A stretch of DNA of 64,000 nucleotides from Arthrobacter sp. NEB 688. GTDB taxonomy: Bacteria > Actinomycetota > Actinomycetes > Actinomycetales > Dermatophilaceae. This document shows positions 40,641 through 58,829 of the stretch, piece by piece. The stretch lies in NCBI RefSeq assembly GCF_013201035.1, contig NZ_CP053707.1:3100001-3164000 (forward strand), in the 5' to 3' direction. The notes under the pieces were generated by a model that was not told where the DNA came from, did not search any database, and saw nothing but the letters and a program-made list of their open reading frames with translations. The position numbers and the translations under genes were made by a program. Position 1 is the first letter of the stretch. Every line of letters begins with the position of its first letter.

Positions 40641-40668
40641 GACCCCTCCGTCCACGAGCGTGTGCGCA

Positions 40669-42667: not shown

Positions 42668-42723
42668 GAGGGGTCTCCTGTGGTCGGGCGGAGGAGCCGG
42701 GTCGACGGCTCCGGGGTGTGGTG

Positions 42724-43692
42724 TCAGGGCGCCGGGACGGCGGACTGCGCGAGCCGGAGGGCGCGCGCCACCGGCAGCGCGGAGGTCGCGGCGGTGTGGG
42801 CCGGCTCCTCCTCGCCGGCCAGCGCGGCGGCGACGTGCCGCAGCGCCGCGCTGAACGAGCGGGCGTCCCGGGTGGGGCTCTCGACGACGGGCTCGGACCC
42901 CGCCCGCCGCACCTCCAGCGTCGCACCGGGCGTCGGGTGGTACGGGTTGTCGAGCCGCAGCGACCCCTCCGTGCCGAGGAGGACGGTCGTGGTGTCGTGG
43001 CTGCGCCGGAACCCGCACGTGAGCAGCAGCCGGCGGTCGTCGGGGTAGGTCAGCACGGCCGAGGCGTCGACCTCGACCTCGTCGCCCTGCACGGCGACGA
43101 CCGTGGCCGACCCGGCGGGCGCCGCGAAGAGCTCGTGCGCCAGGCGCATCGGGTAGCAGCCGACGTCGGCGAGCGCGCCGCCCCCCATCGCCCGGGAGAG
43201 GCGGATGTTGCCCGGTGCGCCGACCTCGAAGTGGAAGGAGCCGACGATCTCGCGCAGCTCGCCGATCGCGCCGTCGGCGAGGAGCTCGACGACACGGCGG
43301 TGCTGCGCCTGGAACGGGAAGACGAAGGCCTCCCACAACGGCTGCTCGGCGGTCGCGGCGACGGCCAGCACCTGCTCGACCTCGCCGGGGTCCAGGCAGA
43401 GCGGCTTCTCGCAGAGCACCGCCTTGCCGGCGCGCAGCGCGGCCGTGGCCCACTCCGCGTGCAGCGGGTTGGGCAGCGGGACGTAGACCGCGTCGACCTT
43501 GGGGTCCTCGATCACCGCCGCGTACCCCTGCGCGGAGCGCTCGACGCCGTGTGCGCGGGCGAACTCCGCCGCGGCGTCCCCGTCGCGTCCCGCGACGAGC
43601 ACGGCGCGCTGGCCGGTCTCGCGGACCGCTGGGAGGAACTGCGCGCGAGCGATGTTGGCGGTGCCGAGCACCCCCCACCGGAGGGCGCTCAC
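42724..43692 (-). CDS. Gfo/Idh/MocA-family oxidoreductase (copy 2 in the cluster)
   Basis: The 322-residue enzyme starts with an NAD(P)-binding fold (LRWGVLGTANIARAQFLPA) and has the family motif CEKPLCLDP (active-site Lys in EKP) and GGGALADVGCYPMRLAHEL. Family members act on sugars, inositols and imine-linked amino acids. The GTG at 43692 overlaps the GntR stop. The second such gene in the cluster is at 48985, with low similarity to this one. Confidence 0.88.
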   Translation of the reverse strand: MSALRWGVLGTANIARAQFLPAVRETGQRAVLVAGRDGDAAAEFARAHGVERSAQGYAAVIEDPKVDAVYVPLPNPLHAEWATAALRAGKAVLCEKPLCLDPGEVEQVLAVAATAEQPLWEAFVFPFQAQHRRVVELLADGAIGELREIVGSFHFEVGAPGNIRLSRAMGGGALADVGCYPMRLAHELFAAPAGSATVVAVQGDEVEVDASAVLTYPDDRRLLLTCGFRRSHDTTTVLLGTEGSLRLDNPYHPTPGATLEVRRAGSEPVVESPTRDARSFSAALRHVAAALAGEEEPAHTAATSALPVARALRLAQSAVPAP

Positions 43693-44348
43693 CCGGCGTC
43701 CGGAGCGGCCGGGCGGCCGTGGTCGGTGTTGACGTAGTGGTCGAACAGGGCCCGGTCGACCTCGCGGGCGGTGCCTCCGACGAGGGCGTCCCGCACCACC
43801 TCGTGCCGCCCGCGGACCTCGGCGAGGTTGATGTGCTGACGGTCGATGGAGGAGCGCATGAGCGCGCCCATCTGGCCGTCCAGACCCGCCCACAGTTCGC
43901 AGGCGCGCCGCCGTCCGGAGGCCTGCACGATGAGGCGGTGGAAGTGGCCGTCCGCGGCGACGATCGCCTCCACGTCGTGGGCGCGGGCCGCCGCGTCCAT
44001 CTCGTCGAGGGCGGCGGCCATCGGCTCGGCGAGGGTGCGGCGCACCCGGACCGGGATGGTCCGGGCGACACCGGCCTCGAGGACGTAGCGCGCGAAGCAG
44101 ACGTCGTCCGCGTCCTCGGCGCTCATCCGCGTCACCTCGCTGTGCCGCCGCGGGGTGATCTTGACCAGGCCCTCGCCCGCGAGGCGGCGCATCGCCTCGC
44201 GGATGGTCGCCCGGCTGACGCCGAGGTCGCTCGCCAGGGACGCCTCGATGAGCCGTGCGCCGCTGGGGATCTCGTTGTTGAGGATCCGGCGTCGCAGGAC
44301 ACGGTGCACGGACTCCGGCAGGGACGAGTGCTCCAGCATGTCGCTCAT
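43689..44348 (-). CDS. GntR-family regulator with FCD domain
   Basis: The 219-residue regulator has a winged HTH (VHRVLRRRILNNEIPSGARLIEASLASDLGVSRATIREAMRRLAGEGLV) and an FCD ligand-binding domain with its metal-binding His set (DGHFHRLIV, RGRHEVVRDAL, HYVNTDHG). FCD regulators usually bind T.GT..AC.A palindromes. TGTCGACA occurs in the three cluster promoters near 55.85, 57.81 and 57.90 kb. Both gene junctions are 4-nt overlaps, so its synthesis is tied to the operon. It is the likely regulator of the whole unit; inference. Confidence 0.88.
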   Translation of the reverse strand: MSDMLEHSSLPESVHRVLRRRILNNEIPSGARLIEASLASDLGVSRATIREAMRRLAGEGLVKITPRRHSEVTRMSAEDADDVCFARYVLEAGVARTIPVRVRRTLAEPMAAALDEMDAAARAHDVEAIVAADGHFHRLIVQASGRRRACELWAGLDGQMGALMRSSIDRQHINLAEVRGRHEVVRDALVGGTAREVDRALFDHYVNTDHGRPAAPDAG

Positions 44349-45220
44349 CGTGCCCTGCGCCCCGCGCCGGTCGCCACCGGCCGGGCGGCCAGGGAGTCCC
44401 AGGTCAGGGGTGTCGGACCGGTGCGGTCCTCGGTCAGCTCGAAGGCGGTCGAGGGCCCGGTGAGGACCGGGGTGATGCCGGGCCCGTGGCCCGGCTGCGG
44501 GCTGTCGCCGTGGACGAGCACCCCCACCGTCGTCCAGCCGCGGCGGAAGCCGATGTTGTGGCGGACGTCGAGGTCGGTGACGGCCACGAGGTCGCCGAAG
44601 CGCAGGACGGCGAGGTCCGGGTCGCCCGCCGGGAAGGCGAGGTCGACGTCCCACTGGTGCGCGGGCCGCCCGACGCCGTTGCCGGCCAGGCGTCCCGGGA
44701 CGACGACCCGGACGGTGAGCCCGATCGTGCTGGGGCCCACCGCGATCCCGAGGGCGTCCGTCATCCCGGGGTCGAGGTTGAGCAGCTGGACCCCGTCCGG
44801 CGCCCCCGTCAGGACGGCTCCCTGGCCGTGCGCGCGCACGCTCACCCCGTCGCCGGGCCGGAGCACCGCGAGGGCTTCGTCGGGCAAGGTGACGAGGACG
44901 CGACCGTGCTCGCCGCGCTTGCCGAGCACCCACCCCCGCGCGCCGGCGGCTGCCCCGTCACGCACCGTCACGGGGTTGCCGATGCAGGCGTACGTGGTGA
45001 GGCCGAGCGACGCGGCGGGGTCGGGGTGGGCCAGCGTCGCGCCGGGGGCGACGTGGTCGCCGTCCACACCGTCGAGGGCGTCGCCGAGGTGGACGCCGAG
45101 GACCACCCCGCCGTCGCCGACGGGCACGTACGGTCGCCCGTCACGGTCGACGCGGTAGGGCGTGGGGCCGACGGTCGGGCTCTCGACGGTGCCCGCGAGG
45201 TTCATCGCGACGGGGATCAT
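44345..45220 (-). CDS. DUF4438 family protein (second of a tandem pair)
   Basis: The 291-residue protein resembles its neighbour at 45217-46083 over most of its length. Shared blocks are HLGD, DHVAPGATLAHPDP, ACIGNPVTV, RGWVLGKRGEHGRVLVTLPDEAL, VRAHGQG, LLNLDPG and FRRGWTTVGVLVHGDSPQPGHGPGITPVLTGP. These match the DUF4438 family, which has a structure but no assigned function. It is soluble, without signal peptide or catalytic signature I can name. Coupled on both sides by ATGA overlaps. Confidence 0.78.
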   Translation of the reverse strand: MIPVAMNLAGTVESPTVGPTPYRVDRDGRPYVPVGDGGVVLGVHLGDALDGVDGDHVAPGATLAHPDPAASLGLTTYACIGNPVTVRDGAAAGARGWVLGKRGEHGRVLVTLPDEALAVLRPGDGVSVRAHGQGAVLTGAPDGVQLLNLDPGMTDALGIAVGPSTIGLTVRVVVPGRLAGNGVGRPAHQWDVDLAFPAGDPDLAVLRFGDLVAVTDLDVRHNIGFRRGWTTVGVLVHGDSPQPGHGPGITPVLTGPSTAFELTEDRTGPTPLTWDSLAARPVATGAGRRAR

Positions 45221-46083
45221 GCTTCCTCCGGGACGTAGGACTGCAGGTTGGCGGACGGGTCGTCGACGACGACGAAGGCCTCCGCGGGGCCGCTGAAGAG
45301 CGTGCTGGGACCGGGCCCGTGGCCGAAGAGCGCGCACTGCCCGGTCGAGATCGTCCCGACGGTCAGCCACCCGGGCCGGTAGCCCCGACCCCAGGTGTGG
45401 TCCTGGTCCTCCAGCACGACGAGGTCGCCGATGCGCAGGCCCTCCAGGCCCAGGGAGAAGTCCTCGGACAGCCCGGCGTAGGCCCCCATGAGGTCGGTGT
45501 TCGCGAACTCCGAGAACATCCCTCCGCCCGCTCCTGCGGCCTCGGCCGGCACCCGGGCGGCCACGTGCACCTCGAGCCGCCCGTCGGGGCGGGTCCCGCC
45601 GGGCATCCGGGCGAGGACCTCGGGCGACAGGTTCTTGACGGCGACCTGCGGGTGGTCGCCGAGCGCCAGCCCCTGGCCGCGGGCGCGGACCCGCACGTGG
45701 TCGCCCACGGTCGTGCCCTCGAGGACCTCGTCGGGGGCGTCGACGAGCACGTACGCGTGCTGCCCGATGACCGTCCCGGTCCGGCCGGCGGACTCGCCGG
45801 AGACGATCGTCACCGTGTTGCCCACGCAGGTGAGGTACTGGAGGGCGTAGTTGGCGGAGGGGTCGCGGTGGCGCACCGACAGCCCCGGCTCGAGGTGGTC
45901 CGCGCGCAGGCCCGTGGCGGGGTCGCCGAGGTGTGTCCCGAGGGTGACCGCCCCCATCCCCGGCAGCACGAACGGCGAGCCGTCCGCGTCGACCCGGTAG
46001 GCGTGCCGGTCGGCCGTCGCCGGCCACACCTCTCCCGACAGCACCTGGGTCACCAGGCGGTCGGCGTTGCTCGAGACCTTCAT
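45217..46083 (-). CDS. DUF4438 family protein (first of a tandem pair)
   Basis: The 288-residue protein has the same blocks as its neighbour (LGTHLGDPATGLRADHLEPGLSVRHRDP, CVGNTVTI, GRTGTVIGQHAYVLVDAPDEVL, VRARGQG, NLSPEVLA, GRGYRPGWLTVGTISTGQCALFGHGPGPSTLFSGP). It differs in an inserted Met/Gly-rich loop (GGGMFSEFANTDLMGAY). Both copies are kept in frame and intact, suggesting they form a heteromer. The ATG overlaps the TldE-like gene's stop. Function unknown; by context, part of substrate breakdown. Confidence 0.78.
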   Translation of the reverse strand: MKVSSNADRLVTQVLSGEVWPATADRHAYRVDADGSPFVLPGMGAVTLGTHLGDPATGLRADHLEPGLSVRHRDPSANYALQYLTCVGNTVTIVSGESAGRTGTVIGQHAYVLVDAPDEVLEGTTVGDHVRVRARGQGLALGDHPQVAVKNLSPEVLARMPGGTRPDGRLEVHVAARVPAEAAGAGGGMFSEFANTDLMGAYAGLSEDFSLGLEGLRIGDLVVLEDQDHTWGRGYRPGWLTVGTISTGQCALFGHGPGPSTLFSGPAEAFVVVDDPSANLQSYVPEEA

Positions 46084-47480
46084 CGTGCTCCTCCGAACCG
46101 GAAGCCCCGGACCCGGACGGCCGGGGCGCTGACGCACCCGTTCCAGACGTTCATCAACGGCTGGGCGAGCACGTCGGGGCCGATGCCGTCGACGCGCCCG
46201 AGGGCACCGAACACCGACTCCGAGAACCGGGCCGGCGAGACCGGCTGGGTCAGCCGGCCGTCCTCGACGAGGAAGCACGCGTCGCGGCTGCCGCCGGTCA
46301 ACGTCGTGGTCTCGGGGTCGATGACGTTGAGGTACCAGAGCCTCTGGACGTACAGGCCGCGCTCGACGCCCGCGACGAGGTCCTCGTCGCTCCCCGCCGC
46401 CATCGTGATGCTCGCCGGGACGGCGTGCGGCGTCTCCTCCCGCGCGATGTGCGCGTGGCCGGTGGGCGGGAGACCGGACCGGGCGGCGCTCGCGAGGTCG
46501 GTGACGGCCCCCGCGACGCGACCCCGGTCCAGCAGGGGGACGCGCACCGAGGCCGTGCCCTCGAGGTCGAACGGGAACGGCAGGCCCCGTCGGGCGGTGG
46601 GGTCGTCGGCCACGTCGACCTCCGGCACCACCACCTGCTGTCCGCGCCGTCGCGCCACGGCGCCGACCCCGTCCGCGACGGCCTCGCCGGTGAAGCCGAA
46701 CGCGGCGATCCGCTCCAGCAGACCGCCGGTGGCCAGCGGTCCGAGCACGACGTCGTACGTGCCGTCGGGCAGGTCGATGCGACCCTTCGCCGCGTCGGCC
46801 TCGCGCACCGTGCGCGCCGTGGCCGCCTCCAGGTCGAGGACGGCGAGGGAGCGGTCGACGTCGGTCCAGTGCGAGGTTCCGTCCGCGACCTTCACGGTGA
46901 GGCTCCCGTGGGCCTCGGTCGCCCGGGCGTAGCGCTCCACGCCCTCCCCGGTCACCACGGCGAGCTCCGTCGCGGCGTGGTGGACCATGCCGTAGGCGGC
47001 GCCCCCGGCCCGCACCGCCGCGTCCATCGTGCGACGGGCGGCGGCGGTCCGGGCTGCGGTGTCCCAGTGGGCGCTCTCGTCGACCCAGAGCGAGGCATCG
47101 GCGTCGTCGCCGGCCACGGCGGGGGCCGCCGGCCCGACCGGCAGCGATCCGAAGGCCGCCGCGAGGGCCCGGGCGCGGTCCGCGGCCCGTCCCCCGACGG
47201 CGGCGGCCGCGGTGAGGTCGGTCGTCGCGACGCGCGAGGCCCGCCCGTCGGACTCCGCCCGGACCATGAGGGTCCACTCGCGGATGTCCTGCGGCTGGTG
47301 GACGCGGTCGACGGCGAAGCGGGTGTACCCGGAGCGCCGGCCGGTGAGGAAGGCGCTCGCGCGGTCGGCGCCCGCGGCCAGCGCCGCGGCCACGGCGGCG
47401 TGGCACGCCTCCAGCGCCCGGTCGCGGCCGACGGCCACCTCGAGGGGCTGCCCGGGGGCGATCCGGTCGACGGTGCTCAC
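46080..47480 (-). CDS. TldE/PmbA-like peptidase partner subunit
   Basis: The 466-residue protein has the TldD/PmbA fold, with the N-terminal SAFLTGRRSGYTRFAVDRVHQPQDIREWTL and C-terminal MAAGSDEDLVAGVERGLYVQRLWYLN and ACFLVEDGRLTQPVSPARFSESV. It lacks HExxxH. In the TldD/TldE heterodimer, TldE has no zinc site and helps form the tunnel to the active subunit. It is coupled by 4-nt overlap to the TldD-like gene, as known pairs are. GTG start at 47480. Confidence 0.85.
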   Translation of the reverse strand: MSTVDRIAPGQPLEVAVGRDRALEACHAAVAAALAAGADRASAFLTGRRSGYTRFAVDRVHQPQDIREWTLMVRAESDGRASRVATTDLTAAAAVGGRAADRARALAAAFGSLPVGPAAPAVAGDDADASLWVDESAHWDTAARTAAARRTMDAAVRAGGAAYGMVHHAATELAVVTGEGVERYARATEAHGSLTVKVADGTSHWTDVDRSLAVLDLEAATARTVREADAAKGRIDLPDGTYDVVLGPLATGGLLERIAAFGFTGEAVADGVGAVARRRGQQVVVPEVDVADDPTARRGLPFPFDLEGTASVRVPLLDRGRVAGAVTDLASAARSGLPPTGHAHIAREETPHAVPASITMAAGSDEDLVAGVERGLYVQRLWYLNVIDPETTTLTGGSRDACFLVEDGRLTQPVSPARFSESVFGALGRVDGIGPDVLAQPLMNVWNGCVSAPAVRVRGFRFGGAR

Positions 47481-48988
47481 CCCATCACCCCGATCCGCAC
47501 TCCGCGCACGAGCGTCGGCGACGACCCGTGGCCGAGGAAGCCCCACTGCTTGGGTTCGCCCTTGCCACAGGGCATCCCGAACGCCCGGAACTCCTCGGGG
47601 CCGGCCACGGCCTCGACGGAGCCCCAGAACTGCGGCGTCGTCCCCCCGTAGGAGAAGCCCCGCAGGAGGCGGCCGCGGCGGCCGCCCCGGACCTCCCAGG
47701 CCACCTCGGTGCCGAACTGGAAGGCCATCCGCCGGTCGTCGATGGACCAGCTGCTGTTGTCGTCCACGTAGTAGCCGTCTCCCATCCGCTCGAGCAGCTC
47801 CGGCAGGCTCCCGCGGCCGGGCTCGAGGTAGACGTTGGTCGCGAAGGGGACGGGCAGGTAGGCCCAGCCGTCCGAGCGGGCCGCGCCGGAGGTCGTGCGT
47901 GCGGCCCGCGCGGCCGACTCCCGGCTGGAGAGGGCCTCCCGCAGGACGCCCTCCTCGATGAGGGTGCGGCGCACCGCGGGTGTGCCCTCGTCGTCCCACG
48001 CGAAGGTGCCGCGCGTGCCGGGGGCCGTCGGGTCGGAGACGATCGTCACCGCGGGCGACCCGTAGCGCAGCGAGCCCACGTCGGACGGCTGGACCCAGGA
48101 GGCGCCCGCGAAGTTCGTCTCGTCGCCGAGGATCCGGTCGAGCTCGATGGCGTGCCCGACGGACTCGTGGATCTGCAGGGCCATCTGGGCGGGGCCGATG
48201 ACGAGGTCCGCCGTGCCGGACGGTGCCTGCGGCGCCGTGAGCAGCCGGGTCGCCTCCTCGCCGACCCGGGCGGCCTCCGTCGGGAGGGAGAGGCCCAGCA
48301 CGTACTCCCAGCCTCCGGCCGCGGTGTTGCCGTGGAAGGAGTTGGGGTAGCTGCGCCGCTGCACGCCGGACTCGTCCGCCGCGACCGCCTGGAGGACGGC
48401 CCCCGACTCCACGAGGTGCTGGTGCTGGCGCGAGCCCTCGCTGTCGGCGTAGTGCCGGTGCTGGCGCTTGGCGTTGAGCCCGGCGGTCACGGCGCGGACG
48501 GCCTGCGGGGCGGACGCGGCGCGCACGACCTCCTGGAGCAGGGCGTGACGCTCCTCGTCGGGCACGGCGAAGGGGTCGACCTCGACCGGGACCTCCCACC
48601 GACCGCTCGACGACTCCCGCGCGGGGAGCTCGGTCCGGGCCAGCCCGGCGCCGGCGAGGGCCGAGCGCACGGCCTGCTCGGCGGCCTCGCGGGGCGCCCG
48701 GTCGGACGAGCCGGGTCCGGCGAGCGCGACCGCGGCGAAGCCCCAGGCGCCGTCGACGAGGACGCGCACCCCGATGCCCGCCGTGTGCTCACGGCGCTCG
48801 TCGAGCCCGCCCGCGCGGGAGGTGTAGAGACGCAGCTCCTCGGCCTCCACGAGCCGCGCGTCGGCGAAGGTCACGCCGCGGGCCTCGGTCGCGGCGAGCG
48901 CCTCGTCGAGCAGCCCGCACGCGCGAGCGTCGTCGGCCAGGTCGCCCCAGGCGTGCGCCGTCGGCGCCGTGCCTCCGGGGCGGCTCAT
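47477..48988 (-). CDS. TldD-like zinc metallopeptidase
   Basis: The 503-residue protein has the metallopeptidase motif IHESVGHAIELDRILGDETNFAG near residue 270 (HESVGHAIE gives the His-Glu-His ligands). Further family blocks are TIVSDPTAPGTRGTFAWDDEG and the C-terminal FGMPCGKGEPKQWGFLGHGSSPTL. In E. coli TldD with TldE digests unfolded peptides and matures microcin B17. Here the pair sits in a peptide-transporter operon, so a role in cleaving an imported peptide-like compound is more likely than maturation. ATG at 48988 overlaps the upstream stop. Confidence 0.9.
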   Translation of the reverse strand: MSRPGGTAPTAHAWGDLADDARACGLLDEALAATEARGVTFADARLVEAEELRLYTSRAGGLDERREHTAGIGVRVLVDGAWGFAAVALAGPGSSDRAPREAAEQAVRSALAGAGLARTELPARESSSGRWEVPVEVDPFAVPDEERHALLQEVVRAASAPQAVRAVTAGLNAKRQHRHYADSEGSRQHQHLVESGAVLQAVAADESGVQRRSYPNSFHGNTAAGGWEYVLGLSLPTEAARVGEEATRLLTAPQAPSGTADLVIGPAQMALQIHESVGHAIELDRILGDETNFAGASWVQPSDVGSLRYGSPAVTIVSDPTAPGTRGTFAWDDEGTPAVRRTLIEEGVLREALSSRESAARAARTTSGAARSDGWAYLPVPFATNVYLEPGRGSLPELLERMGDGYYVDDNSSWSIDDRRMAFQFGTEVAWEVRGGRRGRLLRGFSYGGTTPQFWGSVEAVAGPEEFRAFGMPCGKGEPKQWGFLGHGSSPTLVRGVRIGVMG

Positions 48989-50109
48989 GCGTCGGTCAGC
49001 GGGAAGTCGACCCAGGCGCGCCGCCGGAAGGACGCCTCGAACGCGTTGATGGTCTCCTGGACCAGCGCGCCCTGGCGGAAGTCGCCCTGGTTCTCCGGGC
49101 CGCCCTCGAGGATCTCCGTCGCGAAGTTGCGGACGAGGTTGGAGTAGAAGAGGAAGGGCCACGGCTCGAGCGAGGACCCGCCCTCGGGGAAGAAGCGCTC
49201 GGGGATCTCCATCTCCTTGAACTCCACCGAGCCCTTGGTCGCACCCCTGAGGGTCTGGCAGATGCCCTCCTCCTCGACGAGCCGCACGACGAGCGCACCC
49301 TCCGAGCCGTAGATGCGCACCTCGATGCCCGGGAAGTTCCCGACCGTGACGAACGAGGACTGCACCGACGCGAGACCGCCACCGGCGAACTCGGCGATGA
49401 ACATGTCGCCGTCGTCGATGTTCATCCGGGTCATGGCACCGGTGTCGCGGACGACGCGCTCCGGGACGAAGTTGCGCATCGTCCCGACGACGGACTCCAG
49501 GGCGGTGCCCATCCACCAGTGCATGATGTCGATGACCGGTGCGCCGTAGCCCTCGATCGAGGCGACCTGCAGGAAGTCGGGGTCGGTCGCGTCGCTCTGC
49601 TGGCGCAGCGGCGTCTGCGGGTCCAGCCACTGGCTGTTCTGCTCGTAGGCGTTGAGCATGTACGGGGTGCCGACCCAGCCGTCCCGGATCAGCTCGGCGG
49701 CGTACATCACGGCCGGTGCGTACCGGAAGGTGAAGCCCAGCTTGGTCTTCAGGCCCTTGCTCTTCGCGAGGTCGGCCGCCCGGACCACCTCTCGGTAGTC
49801 GTGGTTGACCGGCTTCTCGCACAGCACGTGCTTGCCGGCCTCGAGCGCGGCCATCGTCACCTCGAAGTGGGCGGCGTCGCCGGTGACGACGTCGATGACG
49901 TCGATGTCCGGGTCCTCGACGAGCTCCCGGTAGTCGGTGGTCGTCCGGGCGACGTGGAACTCGGCGCCGGCGCGGGCCAGCGAGTCGGCGTCGACGTCCG
50001 ACAGCCCGACCACCTCGCAGCGCGGGTCGCGCTGCCAGCCCGGGATGTGCGAGCGGACGGCCCATCGGCCCGTGCCGACGACACCGATGCGAAGGGGCTG
50101 AGCGGTCAT
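48985..50109 (-). CDS. Gfo/Idh/MocA-family oxidoreductase (copy 1 in the cluster)
   Basis: The 374-residue dehydrogenase has the nucleotide-binding start LRIGVVGTGRWAVRSHIPGW and the active-site motif VLCEKPVNHDYREVV, followed by a sheet with MHWWMGTALESVVG. It is longer than copy 2 and shares little beyond the family core. Its ATG overlaps the stop of the OppD-like gene. Substrate unknown; an imine-linked or sugar-like compound is possible. Confidence 0.88.
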   Translation of the reverse strand: MTAQPLRIGVVGTGRWAVRSHIPGWQRDPRCEVVGLSDVDADSLARAGAEFHVARTTTDYRELVEDPDIDVIDVVTGDAAHFEVTMAALEAGKHVLCEKPVNHDYREVVRAADLAKSKGLKTKLGFTFRYAPAVMYAAELIRDGWVGTPYMLNAYEQNSQWLDPQTPLRQQSDATDPDFLQVASIEGYGAPVIDIMHWWMGTALESVVGTMRNFVPERVVRDTGAMTRMNIDDGDMFIAEFAGGGLASVQSSFVTVGNFPGIEVRIYGSEGALVVRLVEEEGICQTLRGATKGSVEFKEMEIPERFFPEGGSSLEPWPFLFYSNLVRNFATEILEGGPENQGDFRQGALVQETINAFEASFRRRAWVDFPLTDA

Positions 50110-51146
50110 GACGGGGTCTCCTGGTGGGTTGAGGGGGTGGGAAGGTTCTCGGCGCTCGCCCGACGGCAGCGGCTGGTGTGCGCCGGGCCGACGTCGAGCA
50201 GCGCGGTGCGCCACTCGTCGCAGGCCGGCTCACGCAGCTCGCAGCGGGGGGCGAAGCGGCAGGTGGGTCCGAGGCCGACGAGCTGCGGGGGGCTGCCGGG
50301 GATGACCCGCAGCTCCTGGTCGCGGGGGACGGCTCCGGGCAGGGCCCCGAGCAGGGCCCGGGTGTAGGGGTGGCGGGGCGACGCGAGCAGCGTCGCGGTG
50401 TCGGCGAGCTCGACGACCTGCCCGGCGTACATCACCGCGACCCGGTCGCAGACCTGGGAGACGACCGACAGGTCGTGGCTCACGAGGACCAGGCTCGTCC
50501 CGAGGTCGCGCTGGAGGGAGAGCAGCAGCGCGAGGATCTGGTCCTGGATGAGGACGTCGAGGGCGGTGGTCGGCTCGTCGGCCACGATGAGGTCGGGCCG
50601 CTGGGCGAGGGCGATCGCGATGACCGTGCGCTGGAGCATCCCCCCGCTGAACTGGTGGGGGTAGTCGCGCAGGCGGGTCTCGGGCGCGGGCAGGCCCACC
50701 TGGTGCAGCAGCTCGAGCACGCGGGCCTCCCCCGCCGCGCCGGTCGGCCCGCCGGAGGCCGCCACCGCCTCGGCCACCTGGTCGCCGATCCGGCGCACCG
50801 GGTTGAGCGAGGTCATCGGGTTCTGCGGGATCATCGCCACGCGACGGCCCCACATGGCCCGCAGCCGGCGCGGGGGCAGCGAGAGGATGTCGTCGACGTC
50901 GTGCGCCGGGTAGGCGACCGTGCCGCTGATGCGTGCCTGCGGGGTCGGGCGCAGGCCGAGCAGCGCCCGGCAGGTGACGCTCTTGCCCGAGCCGGTCTCC
51001 CCGACCACGCCGAGGACCTCGCCCTGGCGCAGCCGAAGGTCGACGCCGTCGGCGGCCATGACGTCGCCGGACTCGGTGGGGATCGCGACCCGCAGGTCGC
51101 GCACGTCGAGCAGCAGGGCGCCGGGCGGGGGCTCGTGCGAGGTCAT
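50106..51146 (-). CDS. oligopeptide-type ABC transporter, ATPase (OppD-like)
   Basis: The 346-residue ATPase has Walker A GETGSGKS, Q-loop MIPQNPMTSLNP, signature FSGGMLQR and Walker B LIVADEPTTALD. The C-terminal Cys-rich oligopeptide/dipeptide tail (CRFAPRCELREPACDEW) is intact and may hold a 4Fe-4S-like site. It pairs with the OppF-like ATPase at 54675. Separated from OppC by 41 bases. Confidence 0.92.
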   Translation of the reverse strand: MTSHEPPPGALLLDVRDLRVAIPTESGDVMAADGVDLRLRQGEVLGVVGETGSGKSVTCRALLGLRPTPQARISGTVAYPAHDVDDILSLPPRRLRAMWGRRVAMIPQNPMTSLNPVRRIGDQVAEAVAASGGPTGAAGEARVLELLHQVGLPAPETRLRDYPHQFSGGMLQRTVIAIALAQRPDLIVADEPTTALDVLIQDQILALLLSLQRDLGTSLVLVSHDLSVVSQVCDRVAVMYAGQVVELADTATLLASPRHPYTRALLGALPGAVPRDQELRVIPGSPPQLVGLGPTCRFAPRCELREPACDEWRTALLDVGPAHTSRCRRASAENLPTPSTHQETPS

Positions 51147-51187
51147 CGGGGTCTCCCGGGTCGGTGACGGGTGGCGGCCGGTCGTGC

Positions 51188-52078
51188 TCACTGCTTGGCC
51201 CGGAACAGGTCGGCGAGGCCGTCCCCGAGGAGGCTGAAGGCCACCCCGAGGAGCACGAGGGCCAGCCCCGGGATGAGCGAGAGCTGCCAGTTCGACAGCA
51301 CGTACGCCTGGCCGCCCGAGATCATCGAGCCCCACTCGGGCGTCGGCTGGGGGATGCCGATGCCGAGGAAGCCCAGCGAGGCGCCGAGGAGCACGTTGCC
51401 GACGGCGTCGACCATCGCGAAGACGGTGACGAAGGGCAGGACGCTCGGGAGCACGTGCCGCACGAGCACCCGGCGCCGCGAGTAGCCGAGGCACCCGGCC
51501 GCGACGACGTAGCCGTACCGGCTCGCGGACAGGGTCTGCCCGTGGGCGATCCGGGCGTAGCCGACCCAGCTGGCGATCCACAGGGCGATGAACATGTTGC
51601 GCAGGCTCGGCCCGAGCGCGGCGACGATCGCGATGACGAGGACGATGAAGGGGAAGGCGAAGAAGAGGTCGACGATGCGCATGACGACGGAGTCGACCCA
51701 TCCCCCGGCGTAGGCGCTGGCCATCCCGATGGCCGTGCCGACGACCAGCGTCACCGAGGTGGCCCCGAAGGCGATGGCGAGGTCGTAGCGGCCGCCGTAG
51801 AGCAGGCGGGCCCAGAGGTCCCGGCCGAACTCGTCGGTGCCGAGCAGGTGCCCACCGGTGCCGGGCGTCACGAGCACGGCGAGCGCGTCGATGTCGGTCG
51901 GCGAGTACGAGGTGAAGAGCGGTGCGCCGAGGCACAGGACGGAGATGACGGCGAGCATCCCCAGGCCCAGGTAGAGGGCCGGACGGCCGCGGAGCCCGCG
52001 GGGCAGCGGGAGCGCGAACCGGCGTCCGCGGCGGGCCACGGGGTCGGTGCCGATGGCGGTGGGGTCGATGACGGTCAT
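51188..52078 (-). CDS. oligopeptide-type ABC transporter, permease (OppC-like)
   Basis: The 296-residue permease has six membrane helices and the DppC/OppC marks: GTDEFGRDLWARLLYGGRYDL, then the ATPase-docking loop GYVVAAGCLGYSRRRVLVRHVLPSVLP. Its ATG overlaps the OppB stop by four bases. The N-terminal ~35 residues are basic and cytoplasmic. Confidence 0.93.
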   Translation of the reverse strand: MTVIDPTAIGTDPVARRGRRFALPLPRGLRGRPALYLGLGMLAVISVLCLGAPLFTSYSPTDIDALAVLVTPGTGGHLLGTDEFGRDLWARLLYGGRYDLAIAFGATSVTLVVGTAIGMASAYAGGWVDSVVMRIVDLFFAFPFIVLVIAIVAALGPSLRNMFIALWIASWVGYARIAHGQTLSASRYGYVVAAGCLGYSRRRVLVRHVLPSVLPFVTVFAMVDAVGNVLLGASLGFLGIGIPQPTPEWGSMISGGQAYVLSNWQLSLIPGLALVLLGVAFSLLGDGLADLFRAKQ

Positions 52079-53028
52079 CGCTGCACCCCCACGGTGAGCC
52101 GGGGGTCGAGGAGGCCGTGGACCACGTCCGTGAACAGGTTGACCACGACGACGAAGACCGCGAGGACGAGCGCCACGGCCTGGACGACCGGGTAGTCACG
52201 GGTCGAGACGGCCCCCACGAGGAGGCTGCCCAGGCCCGGCACGGAGAAGACGTTCTCCACGACCACCGTCCCGCCGACGAGGAACGCCAGGTTGATGCCG
52301 AAGACGACGGCGACGGGGCCGATCGCGTTGCGCAGGACGTGGCGCAGGAGGATCTGGCCCTCGGAGATGCCCTTGAGCCGCGCGATGGTCACGAAGTCCG
52401 ACTCCAGGATGGTGATGGTGCTGGCCCGCAGCGAGCGGACGAGCACGGTGGACAGCGGGATCGCGAGCGTCAGGGCCGGGAGCACGAGGTGCCCCAGGTG
52501 GCTGAGGAAGCCCGTCCCGTAGCCGCCGATCGGCGCCCACCCGAGCTTGAGGCCGAAGACGAGGATGAGCAGGATGCCGACGAGGAAGGCCGGCAGCGCG
52601 AACCCGAGGGTGAAGAAGATGCGGGTGGCCTGGTCGACGACCCCTCCCCGACGGACCGCGGCCCAGATGCCCAGCGGGATGCTCAGCGCGGCGCAGAACG
52701 CCGCCGTGAGGCCCACGAGCAGGAGCGAGGCCCCGGTCCGGTCGAGGAGGAGCTCGCCGACCGGGCGGTGGTACTGGTAGGACTCGCCGAAGGAGCCGGA
52801 CGCCGCCCCCTTGAGGAAGAGCCAGTACTGCGAGAGCAGCGGCTGGTCCAGCCCGAGGCTGCGGCGGATGCCCGCGGCGGCCTCGGGGGTGTAGCGGTTG
52901 CCGAGGATCTGCTGGGCAGGGTCGCCGGGAACCAGACGCAGGAGCAGGAAGCTCACGAGCGTGATCCCGAACAGGACCGGCACCAGGTTCGCCACCCTCG
53001 ACCAGCGCAGGTTCACCGACGACCCCAT
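52075..53028 (-). CDS. oligopeptide-type ABC transporter, permease (OppB-like)
   Basis: The 317-residue permease matches DppB/OppB: FGITLVSFLLLRLVPGDPAQ at the first helix, ESDFVTIARLKGISEGQILLRHVLRNAIGP as docking loop and FSVPGLGSLLVGAV near the end. It follows the binding-protein gene after three bases, so the two are coupled. Confidence 0.93.
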   Translation of the reverse strand: MGSSVNLRWSRVANLVPVLFGITLVSFLLLRLVPGDPAQQILGNRYTPEAAAGIRRSLGLDQPLLSQYWLFLKGAASGSFGESYQYHRPVGELLLDRTGASLLLVGLTAAFCAALSIPLGIWAAVRRGGVVDQATRIFFTLGFALPAFLVGILLILVFGLKLGWAPIGGYGTGFLSHLGHLVLPALTLAIPLSTVLVRSLRASTITILESDFVTIARLKGISEGQILLRHVLRNAIGPVAVVFGINLAFLVGGTVVVENVFSVPGLGSLLVGAVSTRDYPVVQAVALVLAVFVVVVNLFTDVVHGLLDPRLTVGVQR

Positions 53029-53031
53029 GGC

Positions 53032-54636
53032 TCAGTGCTCCTCGACCGTGAGGGTCAGCAGCGAGTCGTTGTAGTTGCCGAGCGGCGACACCTTGAACCC
53101 CTTGACCCACGTGCCGCTGGCGTACCGGAACGGGGCGTAGGCGAGCGGGACGAAGGGCACCTGGTCGGCGATCGCCGTCTGGATCTGGGCGTAGAGCGCG
53201 GCCCGCTTGGTCTCGTCGGTCTCCGAGCGCGCCTCGTTGACCAGCGCGCTGACCGCCTCGTCCTTCCAGTAGCTGTTGAAGGCGTTGGCCCCGCCGTCGC
53301 CGTCGGCGCCGAAGGTCGCGACCTCGTCGGGGTCGATGATGTCGTTGGTCCAGTAGCGCATGCCCATGCCGTTGGTGCCCGGGCGCTGCTTGTCGTAGGC
53401 CGTCGAGAGCTCGAAGGACTGGATGTCGACGGTGATCCCGATCTTCGCGAGGTCGTCCTTGATGACGACGGCCTGCGCCTGGCCGGCGGCGTCGGCGCTC
53501 ACCGCGATGAGCGGGATCGTGAAGCCGTCGGGGTAGCCGGCCTCGGCGAGGAGCTGCTTGGCCCCCGCCAGGTCCTGCTTCGGCTCGACGGCGGACTGGT
53601 CCCAGAAGAGCATCTGGTACGGGAAGAACGTCGTGGCGACCTTCGCGTTGCCTTGGTAGGCGAGCGTGTTCATCCGGCCGAGGTCGAGGGCGGCCTTGAT
53701 GGCCTGGCGCACCTTGACGTTGTCGAGCGGCTTGGTCTTGAGCGGCAGGGACACGAAGTCGACCCGCGTCGAGTCGAAGAGGTCGACGCGCAGCCTCGGG
53801 TTCGCCTCGATCTGCTTGAGGACGTTGCCCGCGGGGTTCTCGATGACGTCGACCTCGCCGCCCTGGAGCTGCAGGAGACGGGTGTTGTCGTCGGTGACGA
53901 TGCTGATCTCGACCGTCTTCAGCTTGGGCTTGGGACCCCAGTAGTTGTCGTTGCGGGTGAGGACCACGCTGCTCTGCGGCGACAGGCTCGTCACCTTGAA
54001 GGGACCCGCCCCGTACGGCGTCTTGTTGAAGAAGTCCTTGTCGGCCTCGACCGCCTTCTGCGGCAGCACCGCGTAGGCGTACATCGCGAGGTCGGCCAGC
54101 AGCGGCGCGTGCGGCTTGGACAGGGTGATGGTGAGCGTGCGGTCGTCCGTCGCCGTGATGTCGGTGACGGGCGTGATGAGGAAGCCCCAGGCGCTGTCCT
54201 CGCCGTCGCGGGCCCGCTCGATGGACCACTTGGCGTCCTGGGCGGTGACCGGGGTGCCGTCCGCGAACTTGACGCCGTCGCGCAGGTGGAACGTGTAGGT
54301 CAGCTTGTCCTCGCTGATGTCCCACTTGTCGGCGAGGTCGGGGACGATCTCCTTGCCCGAGGGGTCGGTCTGGACGAGGCGGGCGTAGAGGTTCTGGTCC
54401 ATCCAGATCGACTCGTTGGCCGAGGCCTGGATGGGGTCGAGCGTGTCGACCGCCACGGCGTTGGCCAGCTTGAGCGTGTCGACGGCGCTGGAGGCGGCGG
54501 GCGCGTCGTCCGAGGTCTGCTCCGCACCTCCGCCACAGGCGCTGAGCGTCACCGCGAGCGTGAGGAGCCCGCCGAGGGTCGCGGTGCTGCGTACCCGGCG
54601 GGTACGGCGCATGGACGAGCTGGTCGAGGACTTCAT
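53032..54636 (-). CDS. oligopeptide-type ABC transporter, substrate-binding lipoprotein
   Basis: The 534-residue solute-binding protein (family 5, DppA/OppA-like) has a lipobox LSACGGG, with Cys near residue 34. The core blocks are VDTLDPIQASANES, LTYTFHLRDGVKFADGTPVTAQDAKWSIERARD and YGAGPFKVTSL. AGGAG precedes the ATG. In this operon it is the gene most likely to define the substrate, but that cannot be read from sequence. It follows the OppF-like gene by 38 bases. Confidence 0.92.
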   Translation of the reverse strand: MKSSTSSSMRRTRRVRSTATLGGLLTLAVTLSACGGGAEQTSDDAPAASSAVDTLKLANAVAVDTLDPIQASANESIWMDQNLYARLVQTDPSGKEIVPDLADKWDISEDKLTYTFHLRDGVKFADGTPVTAQDAKWSIERARDGEDSAWGFLITPVTDITATDDRTLTITLSKPHAPLLADLAMYAYAVLPQKAVEADKDFFNKTPYGAGPFKVTSLSPQSSVVLTRNDNYWGPKPKLKTVEISIVTDDNTRLLQLQGGEVDVIENPAGNVLKQIEANPRLRVDLFDSTRVDFVSLPLKTKPLDNVKVRQAIKAALDLGRMNTLAYQGNAKVATTFFPYQMLFWDQSAVEPKQDLAGAKQLLAEAGYPDGFTIPLIAVSADAAGQAQAVVIKDDLAKIGITVDIQSFELSTAYDKQRPGTNGMGMRYWTNDIIDPDEVATFGADGDGGANAFNSYWKDEAVSALVNEARSETDETKRAALYAQIQTAIADQVPFVPLAYAPFRYASGTWVKGFKVSPLGNYNDSLLTLTVEEH

Positions 54637-54674: not shown

Positions 54675-55733
54675 TCACGGAGCTGCCGTGGGGTTCGCCT
54701 CGGGCGGCGCCGGCCGGTGCCGGCCGTCCGTCGGCGGGAGGGGGGCGGGGGCCGGGCCGTCGTGCAGGTGGCACGCGGTCTGCTGGCCCTCGCCCGTGGT
54801 CGTCAGACGCGGGCGGGTGGTGCGGCAGACCTCCATGACGAACGGGCACCGGGTGTGGAAGGTGCAGCCCGGAGGCGGCGAGGCGGGGTCTGGCAGCTCG
54901 CCGGCGACGACGCTCGAGGTCGACCGGCTGCGGCCGAGCGACGGGGCGGCGGCGAGCAGGGCCTGCGTGTAGGGGTGCTTCGGCGCGGCGAACAGGGCGT
55001 CGGCGGGCCCCCTCTCGACGACGCGGCCGAGGTAGAGGACCACGACCTCGTCCGCGATGCGTTCCAGGACGGCGAGGTCGTGGGTGATGAAGACGTACGC
55101 CAGGCCGAGCTCCCGCTGGAGGCGCTGGAAGAGGTTGAGCACCTGCGCCTGGACGGACACGTCGAGGGCGGAGACGGGCTCGTCGGCCACGATGAGCCGC
55201 GGCTCGGCGGCCAGGGCCCGCGCGATGCTGACCCGCTGACGCCCACCGCCCGACAGCTGCCCGGGCTTGCGCTCGGCCCACTCGGCGGGGAACCCGACCT
55301 GCTCCAGCAGCTCACCGACCCGCTCGCGCCGGGCGTCGCGCGACGTCATGCCGCCGACCGTGAGGACCTCGTCGATCGCGCTCCCGATCGTCAGGTACGG
55401 GTTGAGCGAGGTGTACGGGTCCTGGAGCACGACCTGGATGTCACGACGCCGGCGCCGGCCGGCGTCCGCCCCGGGGCCCGTGGCGGGCACGCCGTCCACG
55501 AGGACCTGCCCGGCGTCGGCCCGCTCGAGCTGGAGCAGGAGCCGCCCCAGCGTGCTCTTGCCCGAGCCGGTCTCCCCGACGATGCCGAGGGTGCGACCGC
55601 GCTCCACCGACAGGTCGACCTCGTCGACCGCACGCAGGGTGCGCGGGGCCTGGCGCCGGAGCCACTGGCGGGCCGAGCGCGGCAGCGCGTAGTGCCGCGA
55701 CAGCCCGCGGGCCTCGAGCAGCGGTGCGCTCAC
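54675..55733 (-). CDS. oligopeptide-type ABC transporter, ATPase (OppF-like)
   Basis: The 352-residue ATPase has Walker A GETGSGKS, Q-loop VVLQDPYTSLNP, signature LSGGGRQR and Walker B LIVADEPVSALD, and the Cys-containing tail (PGCTFHTRCPFVMEVCRTT). The GTG at 55733 overlaps the stop of a 29-codon upstream frame (GTGA), implying translational coupling. It is the first full gene of the transporter operon. Confidence 0.92.
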   Translation of the reverse strand: MSAPLLEARGLSRHYALPRSARQWLRRQAPRTLRAVDEVDLSVERGRTLGIVGETGSGKSTLGRLLLQLERADAGQVLVDGVPATGPGADAGRRRRRDIQVVLQDPYTSLNPYLTIGSAIDEVLTVGGMTSRDARRERVGELLEQVGFPAEWAERKPGQLSGGGRQRVSIARALAAEPRLIVADEPVSALDVSVQAQVLNLFQRLQRELGLAYVFITHDLAVLERIADEVVVLYLGRVVERGPADALFAAPKHPYTQALLAAAPSLGRSRSTSSVVAGELPDPASPPPGCTFHTRCPFVMEVCRTTRPRLTTTGEGQQTACHLHDGPAPAPLPPTDGRHRPAPPEANPTAAP

Positions 55734-55819
55734 GACGCACCCCCGCCGACGCGCGGCGACGCCGCTGCGGTCCGGGGCCTCACCGAGGCGCGGGCTTCGG
55801 TCACCTGTGCAGCAGACAT
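55730..55819 (-). CDS. 29-residue leader peptide coupled to the oppF-like gene
   Basis: An ATG at 55819 with CGGAGG 5 bases upstream (a near-ideal Shine-Dalgarno) opens a 29-codon frame, MSAAQVTEARASVRPRTAAA and nine more residues. Its TGA overlaps the GTG of the OppF-like gene. The overlap and strong ribosome site suggest it is translated and drives translation of the transporter genes. The sequence is Ala/Arg/Ser-rich with no known match. It could instead be a chance frame. Confidence 0.5.
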   Translation of the reverse strand: MSAAQVTEARASVRPRTAAASPRVGGGAS

Positions 55820-55842: not shown

Positions 55843-55894
55843 CGATTGTCGTTTGTCGACAATTCACCATGACGGGCGTGGCTCCCCCTGTCAA
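55843..55894 (-). promoter_or_regulatory. promoter and FCD-type operator of the transporter operon
   Basis: On the minus strand TTGACA (55894-55889) is a consensus -35; CATGGT (55871-55866) lies 17 bases downstream as a weak -10. Just after it is TTGTCGACAA (55853-55862), a perfect palindrome, with a second half-site ATTGTCG beside it (55845-55851). The same TGTCGACA core is in the two other promoters of the cluster. Confidence 0.65.
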
Positions 55895-56040
55895 TGCCCT
55901 CTCGGCGGGCGAGCACGGACGCTCTGCGGGGCCGGTCGAAACGGTGCTGTATCGCGAGTCCGTCATCCGCACAGTCGTTTTCGCGACGGTCAGGTGGCTG
56001 CCTCGCCCGGTGCGGCGAGCCTCGCTCGCCCCCCGGGCCG

Positions 56041-56454
56041 TCATCGCGTCCCCAGGTGGAGGATGGCGTCCATCTCCACCTTGACCTCGCGCAGGCCGGC
56101 CACGACGGTGGTCCGCGCCGGCGGAGCCTCGGGGAAGAACTCCGCGTAGGCGCGGTTGAACTCCGCGAAGTCCGCACCGTCGGCCAGGTAGGCGGTGACC
56201 TTGACGCACCGGTCGAGGCTCGCGCCCGCGGCCGCCGCCACCGCGGCGAGGTTCTCCAGCGTGCGCACCGTCTCCGCGTGCACGTCCCGGGGGACGTACG
56301 ACCCGTCGGGCTCGCGGGGCACCTGGCCCGAGACGAAGAGGAGGTCCCCGGCGCGGACGGCCTGGGAGTAGGGCCCGGCCGGCCTCGGGGCCCGGTCGGT
56401 CCGCACGACCGTGGTGGGTGCGAGCCCGCCCGGCCCGTGGTCGGAGCCGGTCAT
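56041..56454 (-). CDS. RidA family (YjgF/Rid) enamine/imine deaminase
   Basis: The 137-residue protein carries the Rid pattern: APRPAGPYSQAVRAGDLLFVSGQVP, TLENLAAVAAAAGASLDRCVKVTAYL, RTTVVAGL and the C-terminal VKVEMDAIL. The Arg that binds substrate carboxylate is in the PPARTTVV segment. RidA hydrolyses 2-aminoacrylate-type imines made by PLP enzymes. It overlaps the aminotransferase gene by four bases, supporting a joint role. Confidence 0.9.
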   Translation of the reverse strand: MTGSDHGPGGLAPTTVVRTDRAPRPAGPYSQAVRAGDLLFVSGQVPREPDGSYVPRDVHAETVRTLENLAAVAAAAGASLDRCVKVTAYLADGADFAEFNRAYAEFFPEAPPARTTVVAGLREVKVEMDAILHLGTR

Positions 56455-57713
56455 GTCGACGACCCCTGGGACGCCGGGACGTGCTCGTCGTGCGTGGTGC
56501 CCGACGCGCTCGTGAGGGCGGCCGTCATGCGGTCCAGCGCCTCCCACCATCCCTGCTCCTCCCGGGCGTAGCAGATGCGGAAGCGCCCGATGCCCGACGG
56601 CCCGAACTGGTACCCGGGGCTGACGACGACGCCGGCCTCCTGCTGCAGGAGGCGCGCGACCTCGACGTCGGACAGCCCGAGCTCGGAGACGTCGGCCCAC
56701 AGGTAGGCGGTCCCCCGCCCCGGGCTGACCCGCAGCCCCGGCACCGCGCGCAGCCGCGCGACGGTCTCGTCGCGCAGGGCCCGCAGCTCGTCCACCCGGC
56801 GCGCGACGAACTCGACGTCGTCGACGAGCCACCGCGAGAGCACGTGCTGCGCGTAGGCCGGCGCCCGCAGGCACATCATCGCGAGGGCCTGCTCGATGGC
56901 GTCGACCACCGGTGCGTCCGCGACGACCATGCCGACACGGAACCCGCTGAGCGACTCGGTCTTCGACCCCCCGAGGAGGGTGACCGTGCGCTCGAACATG
57001 CCGGGCTCCGCCGCGAGGTGGGAGTACCCGCCGTCGTAGACCAGCCGGCAGTACAGCTCGTCGATGAGCACCCGGAAGTCCCCGGCGCACGCGATGCGGC
57101 CGATGCGGGCGACCGTCTCGCTGCTGAAGACCGTCCCCGTCGGGTTGTTGGGGTTGGAGGTGACGTAGAGGGCGATGCCCCGGGCGCTCCACTCCTCCAG
57201 CCGGTCGAGGTCCGGCTGGAGCCCGTCCTCGGTCTCGACGAAGGGCAGCCGCAGGACCTCGGCGCCGAGGAAGCGGAGCATCCGCTCGACGAAGAGGTAC
57301 TCGGGGTCGGCGAGCACGACCAGGTCGCCCTCGTCGACGAGCGCCGCGAGGACGGCGAACAGGCCGCTCTGGGTGCCGGCGGTGATGGCGAGGTGCCGAG
57401 AAGGGTCGAGGTCGACCCCCAGGAGCCGCGAGAGGGAGGGCGCGCACGCCCCGCGCACCTCGTCGCTGCCCCGGTAGGCGGTGTAGGCGGTCTCGCCGTC
57501 CGCGTAGGCCGACGAGAAGCTGTCCAGCGCCCACTCGGGCGGCGGGAAGCGCACGGTGTCGAAGTGGGTCGTGTCGAGGAGCCCGTCCCCTGCACCGTTG
57601 AGCCCGAGGGAGAGGTCGGCCTCGCGCACCGACGTCCCGAGGAGCGGCCGGCGCTCCGGGAGGTGGGTGCGGCGGAGTCGGTGCGACTCCGGCCCGTCAG
57701 GAAGGTGAGCCAT
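56451..57713 (-). CDS. PLP-dependent aminotransferase, class I/II
   Basis: The 420-residue enzyme has the fold-type I blocks: TAGTQSGLFAVLAALVDEGDLVVLADPEY, VTSNPNNPTGTVFSSE, LIDELYCRLVY, and the Schiff-base Lys in LLGGSKTESLSGFRVGMVV near residue 250; the Arg for carboxylate binding is near RFRICYAREE. GGAGG precedes the ATG at 57713. It is the first gene of this transcript, with RidA coupled behind it. Amine donor and product unknown. Confidence 0.9.
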   Translation of the reverse strand: MAHLPDGPESHRLRRTHLPERRPLLGTSVREADLSLGLNGAGDGLLDTTHFDTVRFPPPEWALDSFSSAYADGETAYTAYRGSDEVRGACAPSLSRLLGVDLDPSRHLAITAGTQSGLFAVLAALVDEGDLVVLADPEYLFVERMLRFLGAEVLRLPFVETEDGLQPDLDRLEEWSARGIALYVTSNPNNPTGTVFSSETVARIGRIACAGDFRVLIDELYCRLVYDGGYSHLAAEPGMFERTVTLLGGSKTESLSGFRVGMVVADAPVVDAIEQALAMMCLRAPAYAQHVLSRWLVDDVEFVARRVDELRALRDETVARLRAVPGLRVSPGRGTAYLWADVSELGLSDVEVARLLQQEAGVVVSPGYQFGPSGIGRFRICYAREEQGWWEALDRMTAALTSASGTTHDEHVPASQGSST

Positions 57714-57787
57714 CAACGGCCTCCGATCGAGAAGCGACTGGATCACCAAACCGGCTGTGGCACAACGTTCGTAGGTGATGGGGGCCA

Positions 57788-57817
57788 AGTATGTCCAGCC
57801 CGTCGACTGTCGACAAG
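57788..57817 (-). promoter_or_regulatory. aminotransferase promoter with FCD-type operator
   Basis: On the minus strand TTGTCG (57816-57811) and CATACT (57793-57788) are spaced by exactly 17 bases. The palindrome TGTCGACA (57808-57815) overlaps the -35, a good place for a repressor. The promoter is ~75 bases before the start. Confidence 0.65.
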
Positions 57818-57892
57818 CAACAGATTCTGGTGCTCACCCGGAAGGGGTTCTACCGGTTCGTGACAGTGCCGCTCGGCGTCCTCTCCGACCCC

Positions 57893-57922
57893 TTGACGAA
57901 CTGTCGACAGTCGACCTAGCGT
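57893..57922 (+). promoter_or_regulatory. SDR promoter with FCD-type operator
   Basis: TTGACG (57893-57898) and TAGCGT (57917-57922) are spaced by 18 bases. CTGTCGACAG (57901-57910), a perfect palindrome, lies in the spacer, so bound repressor would block polymerase. The SDR gene begins ~80 bases downstream. Confidence 0.65.
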
Positions 57923-58004: not shown

Positions 58005-58829
58005 ATGAACGTGTCCTACGACTTCACCGGCCGCGTGGCCGTCGTCACGGGCGCCGCCCGCGGCGTGGGCCGCGACCTCGTCGCGCAGCTCGTCGCGGCG
58101 GGCGCGCACGTCGTCGCCGCCGACCGCGACGAGGAGGGCCTCGCCGAGACCTGCGCGCCGCACGGCGACCGCGCCCGACCGGTCGTCGCGGACATCCGGT
58201 CGGCCCAGGACGCGGAGCGCGTCGTCGCCGCGGCCCGAGACGGCTTCGGACGCCTCGACTTCTGCGTCAACAACGCCGCCGTCGCTCCTCACGCGAGCGT
58301 GCTCGACGAACGGGTCGAGGTGTGGGACACCGTCTTCGCGGTGAACTGCCGCGGCACGTTCCTCATGACCCAGGCCGCTGCCCGGGTCATGATCGCCCAG
58401 GGCGAGGGCGGGCGGATCATCAACTTCTCGTCGGGTGTCTCCAACCGCGGGTCGGCCGGTGCGGCGGCCTACGCGAGCAGCCGCGCCGCCACCGAGAGCT
58501 TCACGCGGGTGGCGGCCATCGAGCTGGCCCCGCACGACATCCTCGTCAACTGCGTGAGCCCCGGCCTCATCGACACCCAGCCCAAGCCGCTGCCGCCGTC
58601 GATGGCCTCCTCCCTGGCCTCGCGCATCCCCGCGCTGCCGCTCGCCCGGGCGGGCGAGCCGGCGGAGGTCGGCCACCTCGTCCTGTGGCTCTGCTCCGAG
58701 GGCGCGGCCTACGTGACGGGGTCGCTCTGTCACGTCGACGGCGGTGCGGGCATCGGCGGGCGCTGGAGCGGCGTCGTCGTCGACGAGGACGTGCGCTACG
58801 ACTGGGTCACGGGGGCCGACCGCGGCTGA
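58005..58829 (+). CDS. SDR-family oxidoreductase with Arg in place of the catalytic Lys
   Basis: The 274-residue protein has the Rossmann motif VAVVTGAARGVGRDL, NNAAVA and catalytic Ser (NFSSGVSNRG). The usual YxxxK motif reads YASSR: Tyr is kept but the Lys is Arg. A C-terminal DGGAG and a Trp-rich tail follow. AGGAG precedes the ATG. The change may lower or alter activity. The promoter carries the cluster's palindrome, so it likely belongs to the same regulon, transcribed divergently from the aminotransferase. Confidence 0.85.
   Translation: MNVSYDFTGRVAVVTGAARGVGRDLVAQLVAAGAHVVAADRDEEGLAETCAPHGDRARPVVADIRSAQDAERVVAAARDGFGRLDFCVNNAAVAPHASVLDERVEVWDTVFAVNCRGTFLMTQAAARVMIAQGEGGRIINFSSGVSNRGSAGAAAYASSRAATESFTRVAAIELAPHDILVNCVSPGLIDTQPKPLPPSMASSLASRIPALPLARAGEPAEVGHLVLWLCSEGAAYVTGSLCHVDGGAGIGGRWSGVVVDEDVRYDWVTGADRG

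Follow-up and report, generated by a model that had tools for sequence, protein, structure and literature searches.

The operators of FCD-type GntR regulators include sites with the spacing GT-N2-AC, described for PrpR, UxuR, GntR, HypR, and others, which form palindromic, TKGT/ACMA-like boxes (PMC4494728). In many GntR-family sites, extra half-sites have been reported 7–12 nt from the palindrome centre and were left for experiment (PMC4494728). In Pseudomonas aeruginosa, EMSA showed binding of the FCD protein PrpR to ATTGTCGACAAT (PMC9765439). The original prediction for the present locus gave FCD sites as T.GT..AC.A, a form that holds for the GT-N2-AC spacing of the PrpR/UxuR/GntR class but not for the commoner GT-N3-AC class (PMC4494728).

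The window, that is, the whole 64,000-nt stretch of DNA analysed, belongs to a host genome (G000) of 4,077,299 bases (4.08 Mb) with 74% GC. It contains a tightly packed minus-strand operon, with start and stop codons mostly overlapping, in the order oppF, oppA, oppB, oppC, oppD, Gfo/Idh/MocA, tldD-like, tldE-like, two DUF4438 genes, FCD GntR, a further Gfo/Idh/MocA, and the D-isomer 2-hydroxyacid dehydrogenase. Upstream of the operon lie an aminotransferase–RidA pair on the same strand and an SDR gene divergent from the pair. The genes are as follows.

54675..55736, minus strand: OppF/DppF-type ATPase (Pfam ABC_tran and oligo_HPY), the first large operon gene
53032..54636, minus strand: solute-binding protein family 5, OppA-like (SBP_bac_5, 4.5e-97)
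50106..53028, minus strand: OppB, OppC, and OppD (Pfam BPD_transp_1, ABC_tran, oligo_HPY)
48985..50109, minus strand: Gfo/Idh/MocA oxidoreductase (Gfo2)
46080..48988, minus strand: TldD-like and TldE/PmbA-like pair (PmbA_TldD domains)
44345..46083, minus strand: two tandem DUF4438 proteins, relatives of TM1086 (PDB 3dcl)
43689..44348, minus strand: FCD-domain GntR regulator, 219 aa (Pfam GntR and FCD), the candidate repressor for operators O1–O3
41621..43692, minus strand: second Gfo/Idh/MocA oxidoreductase and D-isomer 2-hydroxyacid dehydrogenase, the operon end
56041..57713, minus strand: class I/II aminotransferase (56451–57713) and RidA-type protein (56041–56454), with predicted transcription from the O2 promoter
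58005..58829, plus strand: SDR oxidoreductase, with predicted transcription from the O3 promoter

In several actinobacterial families, the TldD-like, TldE-like, and two DUF4438 genes (44345–48988, minus strand) co-occur with the opp genes and the gene for the FCD regulator. The analysis revealed no function for this TldD/TldE–DUF4438 set; in the literature searched, DUF4438 was not named and no description of the regulon or its controlled pathway was found.

The palindrome TGTCGACA is present in three copies in the whole window, at 55854–55861, 57808–57815, and 57902–57909, all of which are intergenic and situated within promoters. The surrounding 10-mers are TTGTCGACAA (55853–55862), CTGTCGACAA (57807–57816), and CTGTCGACAG (57901–57910), in position and letters as first predicted. 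A coincidence of three sites has to be weighed in a genome of 74% GC, where GTCGAC is common (143 occurrences in the window). In dinucleotide shuffles of the window, the chance mean of TGTCGACA was 1.12 and at least three copies were reached in 11 of 100, so the bare count in the window carries little weight. Genome-wide, where motif counts were made by pattern searches, 31 copies were found in the 4.08 Mb, leaving the 8-mer alone without specificity; roughly half of the other 28 lie clearly in coding frames according to a rough codon-usage test.

The specificity resides in a longer unit. In O1, O2, and O3, read along transcription, the right half of the palindrome recurs as CGAC 7 bp on, forming the composite TGTCGACA-NN-CGAC, in which the palindrome is joined to an extra half-site at a 7-bp shift. 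In this half-site, CGAC is followed by two more bases, frequently AA or GA. Across the genome, the composite TGTCGACANNCGAC is matched exactly at O1, O2, and O3 and nowhere else, and one mismatch gives 35 places. Taking the 8- or 10-mer as the unit, as originally proposed, was therefore right as to the palindrome but not as to the specific unit, since only the longer composite is unique in the genome; likewise, the proposed check on how common the motif is gave an ambiguous answer for the bare palindrome, which is fairly common, and only three matches for the composite. A two-mismatch composite search over 17 genomes was of no use, the signal being swamped by chance matches. The best other TGTCGACA copy, L096 (genome 3228843–3228850), was tried as a fourth promoter site and left out because it lies within a small ORF; its sequence, TTGTCGACAAGCGAA, is the best other partial operator match among the genome copies inspected.

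The three candidate operators and their promoters, whose elements were called by eye from consensus and conservation, are as follows.

55846..55862, minus strand: candidate operator O1, TTGTCGACAAACGACAA, made up of TTGTCGACAA and the CGACAA half-site and lying immediately downstream of the -10
55866..55894, minus strand: candidate opp promoter, -35 TTGACA, N17, -10 CATGGT, read from sequence
57800..57816, minus strand: candidate operator O2, TTGTCGACAGTCGACGG, an exact composite match, its TTGTCG doubling as the -35
57788..57816, minus strand: candidate aminotransferase promoter, TTGTCG-N17-CATACT, whose -35 is where the palindrome begins, read from sequence
57901..57917, plus strand: candidate operator O3, CTGTCGACAGTCGACCT, an exact composite match in the -35/-10 spacer
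57893..57921, plus strand: candidate SDR promoter, TTGACG-N17-CTAGCG, read from sequence

These placements agree with the operator positions proposed at the outset, namely -10/+1 for opp, -35 for the aminotransferase, and spacer for the SDR. In the opp promoter, GAA separates the -10 CATGGT from the palindrome. The cluster is present in two other Nostocoides (G235 and G297), in which ATTGTCGACAA and the opp -10 are identical in surrounding intergenic DNA that has diverged; TTGACA and TCATGGTGAA of the promoter are also kept. The O1 geometry is matched in Microlunatus flavus and G506, and in Nostocoides, M. flavus, and G506 alike, opp-type promoters run from TTGACA through 17–18 bases to CATGGT or CATCGT, with the palindrome starting no more than about 3 bases later. 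Between the opp promoter and oppF lies a short ORF (55730–55819, minus strand) of 29 aa, MSAAQVTEARASVRPRTAAASPRVGGGAS, with a GGAGG ribosome site and a stop that overlaps the oppF start. At the same place, G235 and G297 contain ORFs of about 32 aa that are unlike it in sequence, and this shared place with unlike sequence suggests a translational-coupling leader.

At O3, TGTCGACAGTCGACCTAGCGTTCGCG is invariant across the three Nostocoides amid diverged flanking DNA, as is TGTCGACAGTCGACCTAGCG before the SDR gene, although the intergenic sequence around it has diverged. Both in the Nostocoides SDR promoters and in the Gfo–TldD promoters of Actinokineospora, the site occupies the spacer between -35 and -10. 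The predicted positions, downstream of the -10 and in the spacer, are those expected of a repressor. At O2, TTGTCG-N17-CATACT is kept in G235, and of the palindrome itself the two nearest species retain no more than the -35 half (TTGCTTGTCG in G235, CTTGTCG in G297). O2 is accordingly ranked as the weakest of the three candidate sites and is weakly supported.

Conservation extends beyond the genus. Distant clusters were found via the DUF4438 protein in M. flavus, three Actinokineospora, and one actinobacterial MAG, and matrices were scanned against the cluster regions. With a Nostocoides-only matrix, the best match in each of them is a cluster promoter, situated at the divergent SDR–opp/HADH region in M. 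flavus, at the oppA promoter in the MAG, and at the promoter of the Gfo–TldD–TldE–DUF4438–regulator operon in Actinokineospora. In each of the M. flavus, MAG, and Actinokineospora sets, the observed score was reached by 0 of 200 Markov shuffles. No recognised site was found at the promoter of the Actinokineospora opp–aminotransferase operon (L050/L051/L055). In M. flavus, CCGACAAGCGACGATC, located about 60 bases upstream of the RidA gene (L054:13700–13740), resembles a degraded operator.

A later test set comprised four more genera, each of a different family (G506, G361, G579, and G391). G506 contains one site at the SDR–opp promoter and a second upstream of the 2-hydroxyacid dehydrogenase gene (L108:7780 and 7625; 0 of 200 shuffles). 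G361 contains sites at oppA and Gfo–TldD (L114:881 and 9499; 0 of 200 shuffles), together with a third, weaker site between the SDR and dehydrogenase genes. In G579 (46% GC), TTGTCGACATTCAACAA upstream of oppA is the best match with the all-lineage matrix and is only suggestive, because with the Nostocoides-only matrix the observed maximum was reached by 11 of 200 shuffles. The G391 contig, which stops before any promoter and does not carry the regulator, was left out of the site evidence. With a composite that is unique in the genome and that recurs at homologous promoters of other families, coincidence is scarcely credible as an account of the three sites; judged by these comparisons, conservation refutes it for O1 and O3, but not for O2. 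Comparative sequence evidence strongly supports O1 and O3 as operators.

The arrangement of the half-sites bears on what the functional unit is. The unit might instead be a 17-bp inverted repeat, TTGTCG-N5-CGACAA, with the inner TGTCGACA a by-product of overlap. This repeat has one exact match in G000, the opp site O1, and is likewise unique in G307; moreover, the longer repeat is perfect in the MAG, where the inner palindrome departs at one position (TTGTCGCCAA). However, the SDR sites are without the outer AA, and a distance of 9 between GT and AC does not resemble the FCD sites in PMC4494728. Furthermore, the extra half-sites, present on one side in Nostocoides, flank the inner palindrome on both sides in M. 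flavus (TCGTCGGTTGTCGACAATCGACGA), G506, and the MAG, making the inner dyad the centre of symmetry. A 17-bp unit is thereby rendered unlikely, and the preferred unit is the central palindrome with added half-sites. In Actinokineospora, the half-sites stand in tandem, at +7 and +14.

The regulator coded in the operon is, as the original prediction stated, of the FCD-type GntR family, with an N-terminal GntR winged helix-turn-helix (52.2 bits, 4.8e-14) and a C-terminal FCD domain (56.1 bits, 6.3e-15), both above the Pfam cut-off. Its start overlaps the stop of the preceding gene (ATGA). Three residues, E35, R46, and R50, which cover the recognition-helix Arg and contact positions beside it, are invariant in 8 regulator orthologues and align with Glu34, Arg45, and Arg49, the DNA contacts of Atu1419 (PMC7797058). 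Simultaneously, D133, H137, H182, and H204 are invariant in the 8 orthologues and form a putative Asp-His-His-His metal site, the Asp/His spacing of which resembles that in TM0439 and HypR (PMC6608401). The structural model (pLDDT 82) has fold matches to McbR, Atu1419, TM0439, AlkR, and DhdR with TM-scores of only about 0.4–0.55, and VanR-group proteins are among the best of these. The model contains helices 77–95, 100–105, 107–122, 126–143, 147–157, 160–171, 175–191, and 194–205; helices 100–105 and 107–122 lie close together. The VanR group is marked by an effector domain of six helices instead of seven, and the number counted in the model hinges on how the short ones are joined.

An orthologue of this regulator is found in every cluster with enough contig, and among the recognised genes it is the sole regulator common to all of them. 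The operators could be real and yet be bound by another protein, either another FCD protein of the genome or the LysR regulator coded at 39720–40655. The genome holds six FCD matches, the five others of which might bind similar sites, and the operators of different FCD orthologues can look alike, for example ATTGTCGACAAT of PrpR (PMC9765439). Nevertheless, the cluster FCD protein is present in all site-bearing clusters, including those of distant families, and the LysR gene is kept only within the genus; a different regulator is therefore distinctly improbable. The three sites are very probably the operators of one local regulon, read by the cluster's own FCD (putatively VanR-like) GntR repressor, and in this the comparative data agree with the regulon as first predicted.

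As to binding, repression, stoichiometry, and ligand, we infer the following scheme. A regulator dimer would most likely sit on the central palindrome TTGTCGACAA with its GT-CG-AC core, and the extra half-site 7 bp downstream would probably be contacted by a further subunit or dimer. Bound at +1 in the opp promoter, over the -35 in the aminotransferase promoter, and in the spacer of the SDR promoter, the regulator would block RNA polymerase, repressing opp, the SDR gene, and probably the aminotransferase; it would also repress itself because its gene sits in the opp operon. The regulator would be released by an imported substrate or a pathway intermediate; this ligand would probably be a small carboxylate bound at the Asp133/His137/His182/His204 metal site. 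More tentatively, and with somewhat more doubt than confidence, the operators may be modular, each built from one FCD dimer site at the centre and half-sites phased at 7 bp, the number and side of the boxes setting the subunits assembled at each promoter.

These comparisons provide a predicted exact operator and regulon for a conserved actinobacterial gene set, comprising a TldD/TldE pair, twin DUF4438 proteins, and a peptide-type importer. Through the regulator and its operator, the inducer, and hence the substrate, could be approached directly. Meanwhile, the sites across lineages constitute a clean set of natural variants for studying the extra half-sites of GntR operators, a feature that has received little attention. 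From the sequence comparisons, we conclude that the cluster forms a putative autoregulated repressor regulon, of a known type, for an uncharacterised pathway of peptide-type import, TldD–TldE, and DUF4438.

Compared with the described FCD systems, the locus belongs by spacing to the GT-N2-AC class, the TTGTCGACAA core being found in O1 and in most promoters across the lineages. Like PrpR, the regulator is an FCD protein coded within the operon that it is predicted to repress, and the core of ATTGTCGACAAT is the core of O1 (PMC9765439). However, PrpR controls a methylcitrate operon, and no methylcitrate-cycle (prp) enzymes are among the annotated cluster proteins, which are instead an importer, TldD/TldE, DUF4438, oxidoreductases, an aminotransferase, RidA, and an SDR; in addition, the operators here bear the extra half-site. 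Atu1419, a VanR-group FCD protein of Agrobacterium fabrum, is autoregulated, uses 10-bp GT-N2-AC palindromes at some -10 elements and in one spacer, and has DNA-contact residues that are kept in the regulator here (PMC7797058), but its palindrome is ATGTATACAT and it serves another pathway. Atu1419 is a DNA-looping tetramer. The FCD repressors AlkR and DhdR, which bind the one-base-spacer palindromes ATTGTCAGACAAT and GTTATCAGATAAC and control other genes, are among the fold matches of the cluster regulator, and they resemble the proposed system in their short palindromic operators over promoter elements and in their release by a metabolite (PMC12042122, PMC8651671).
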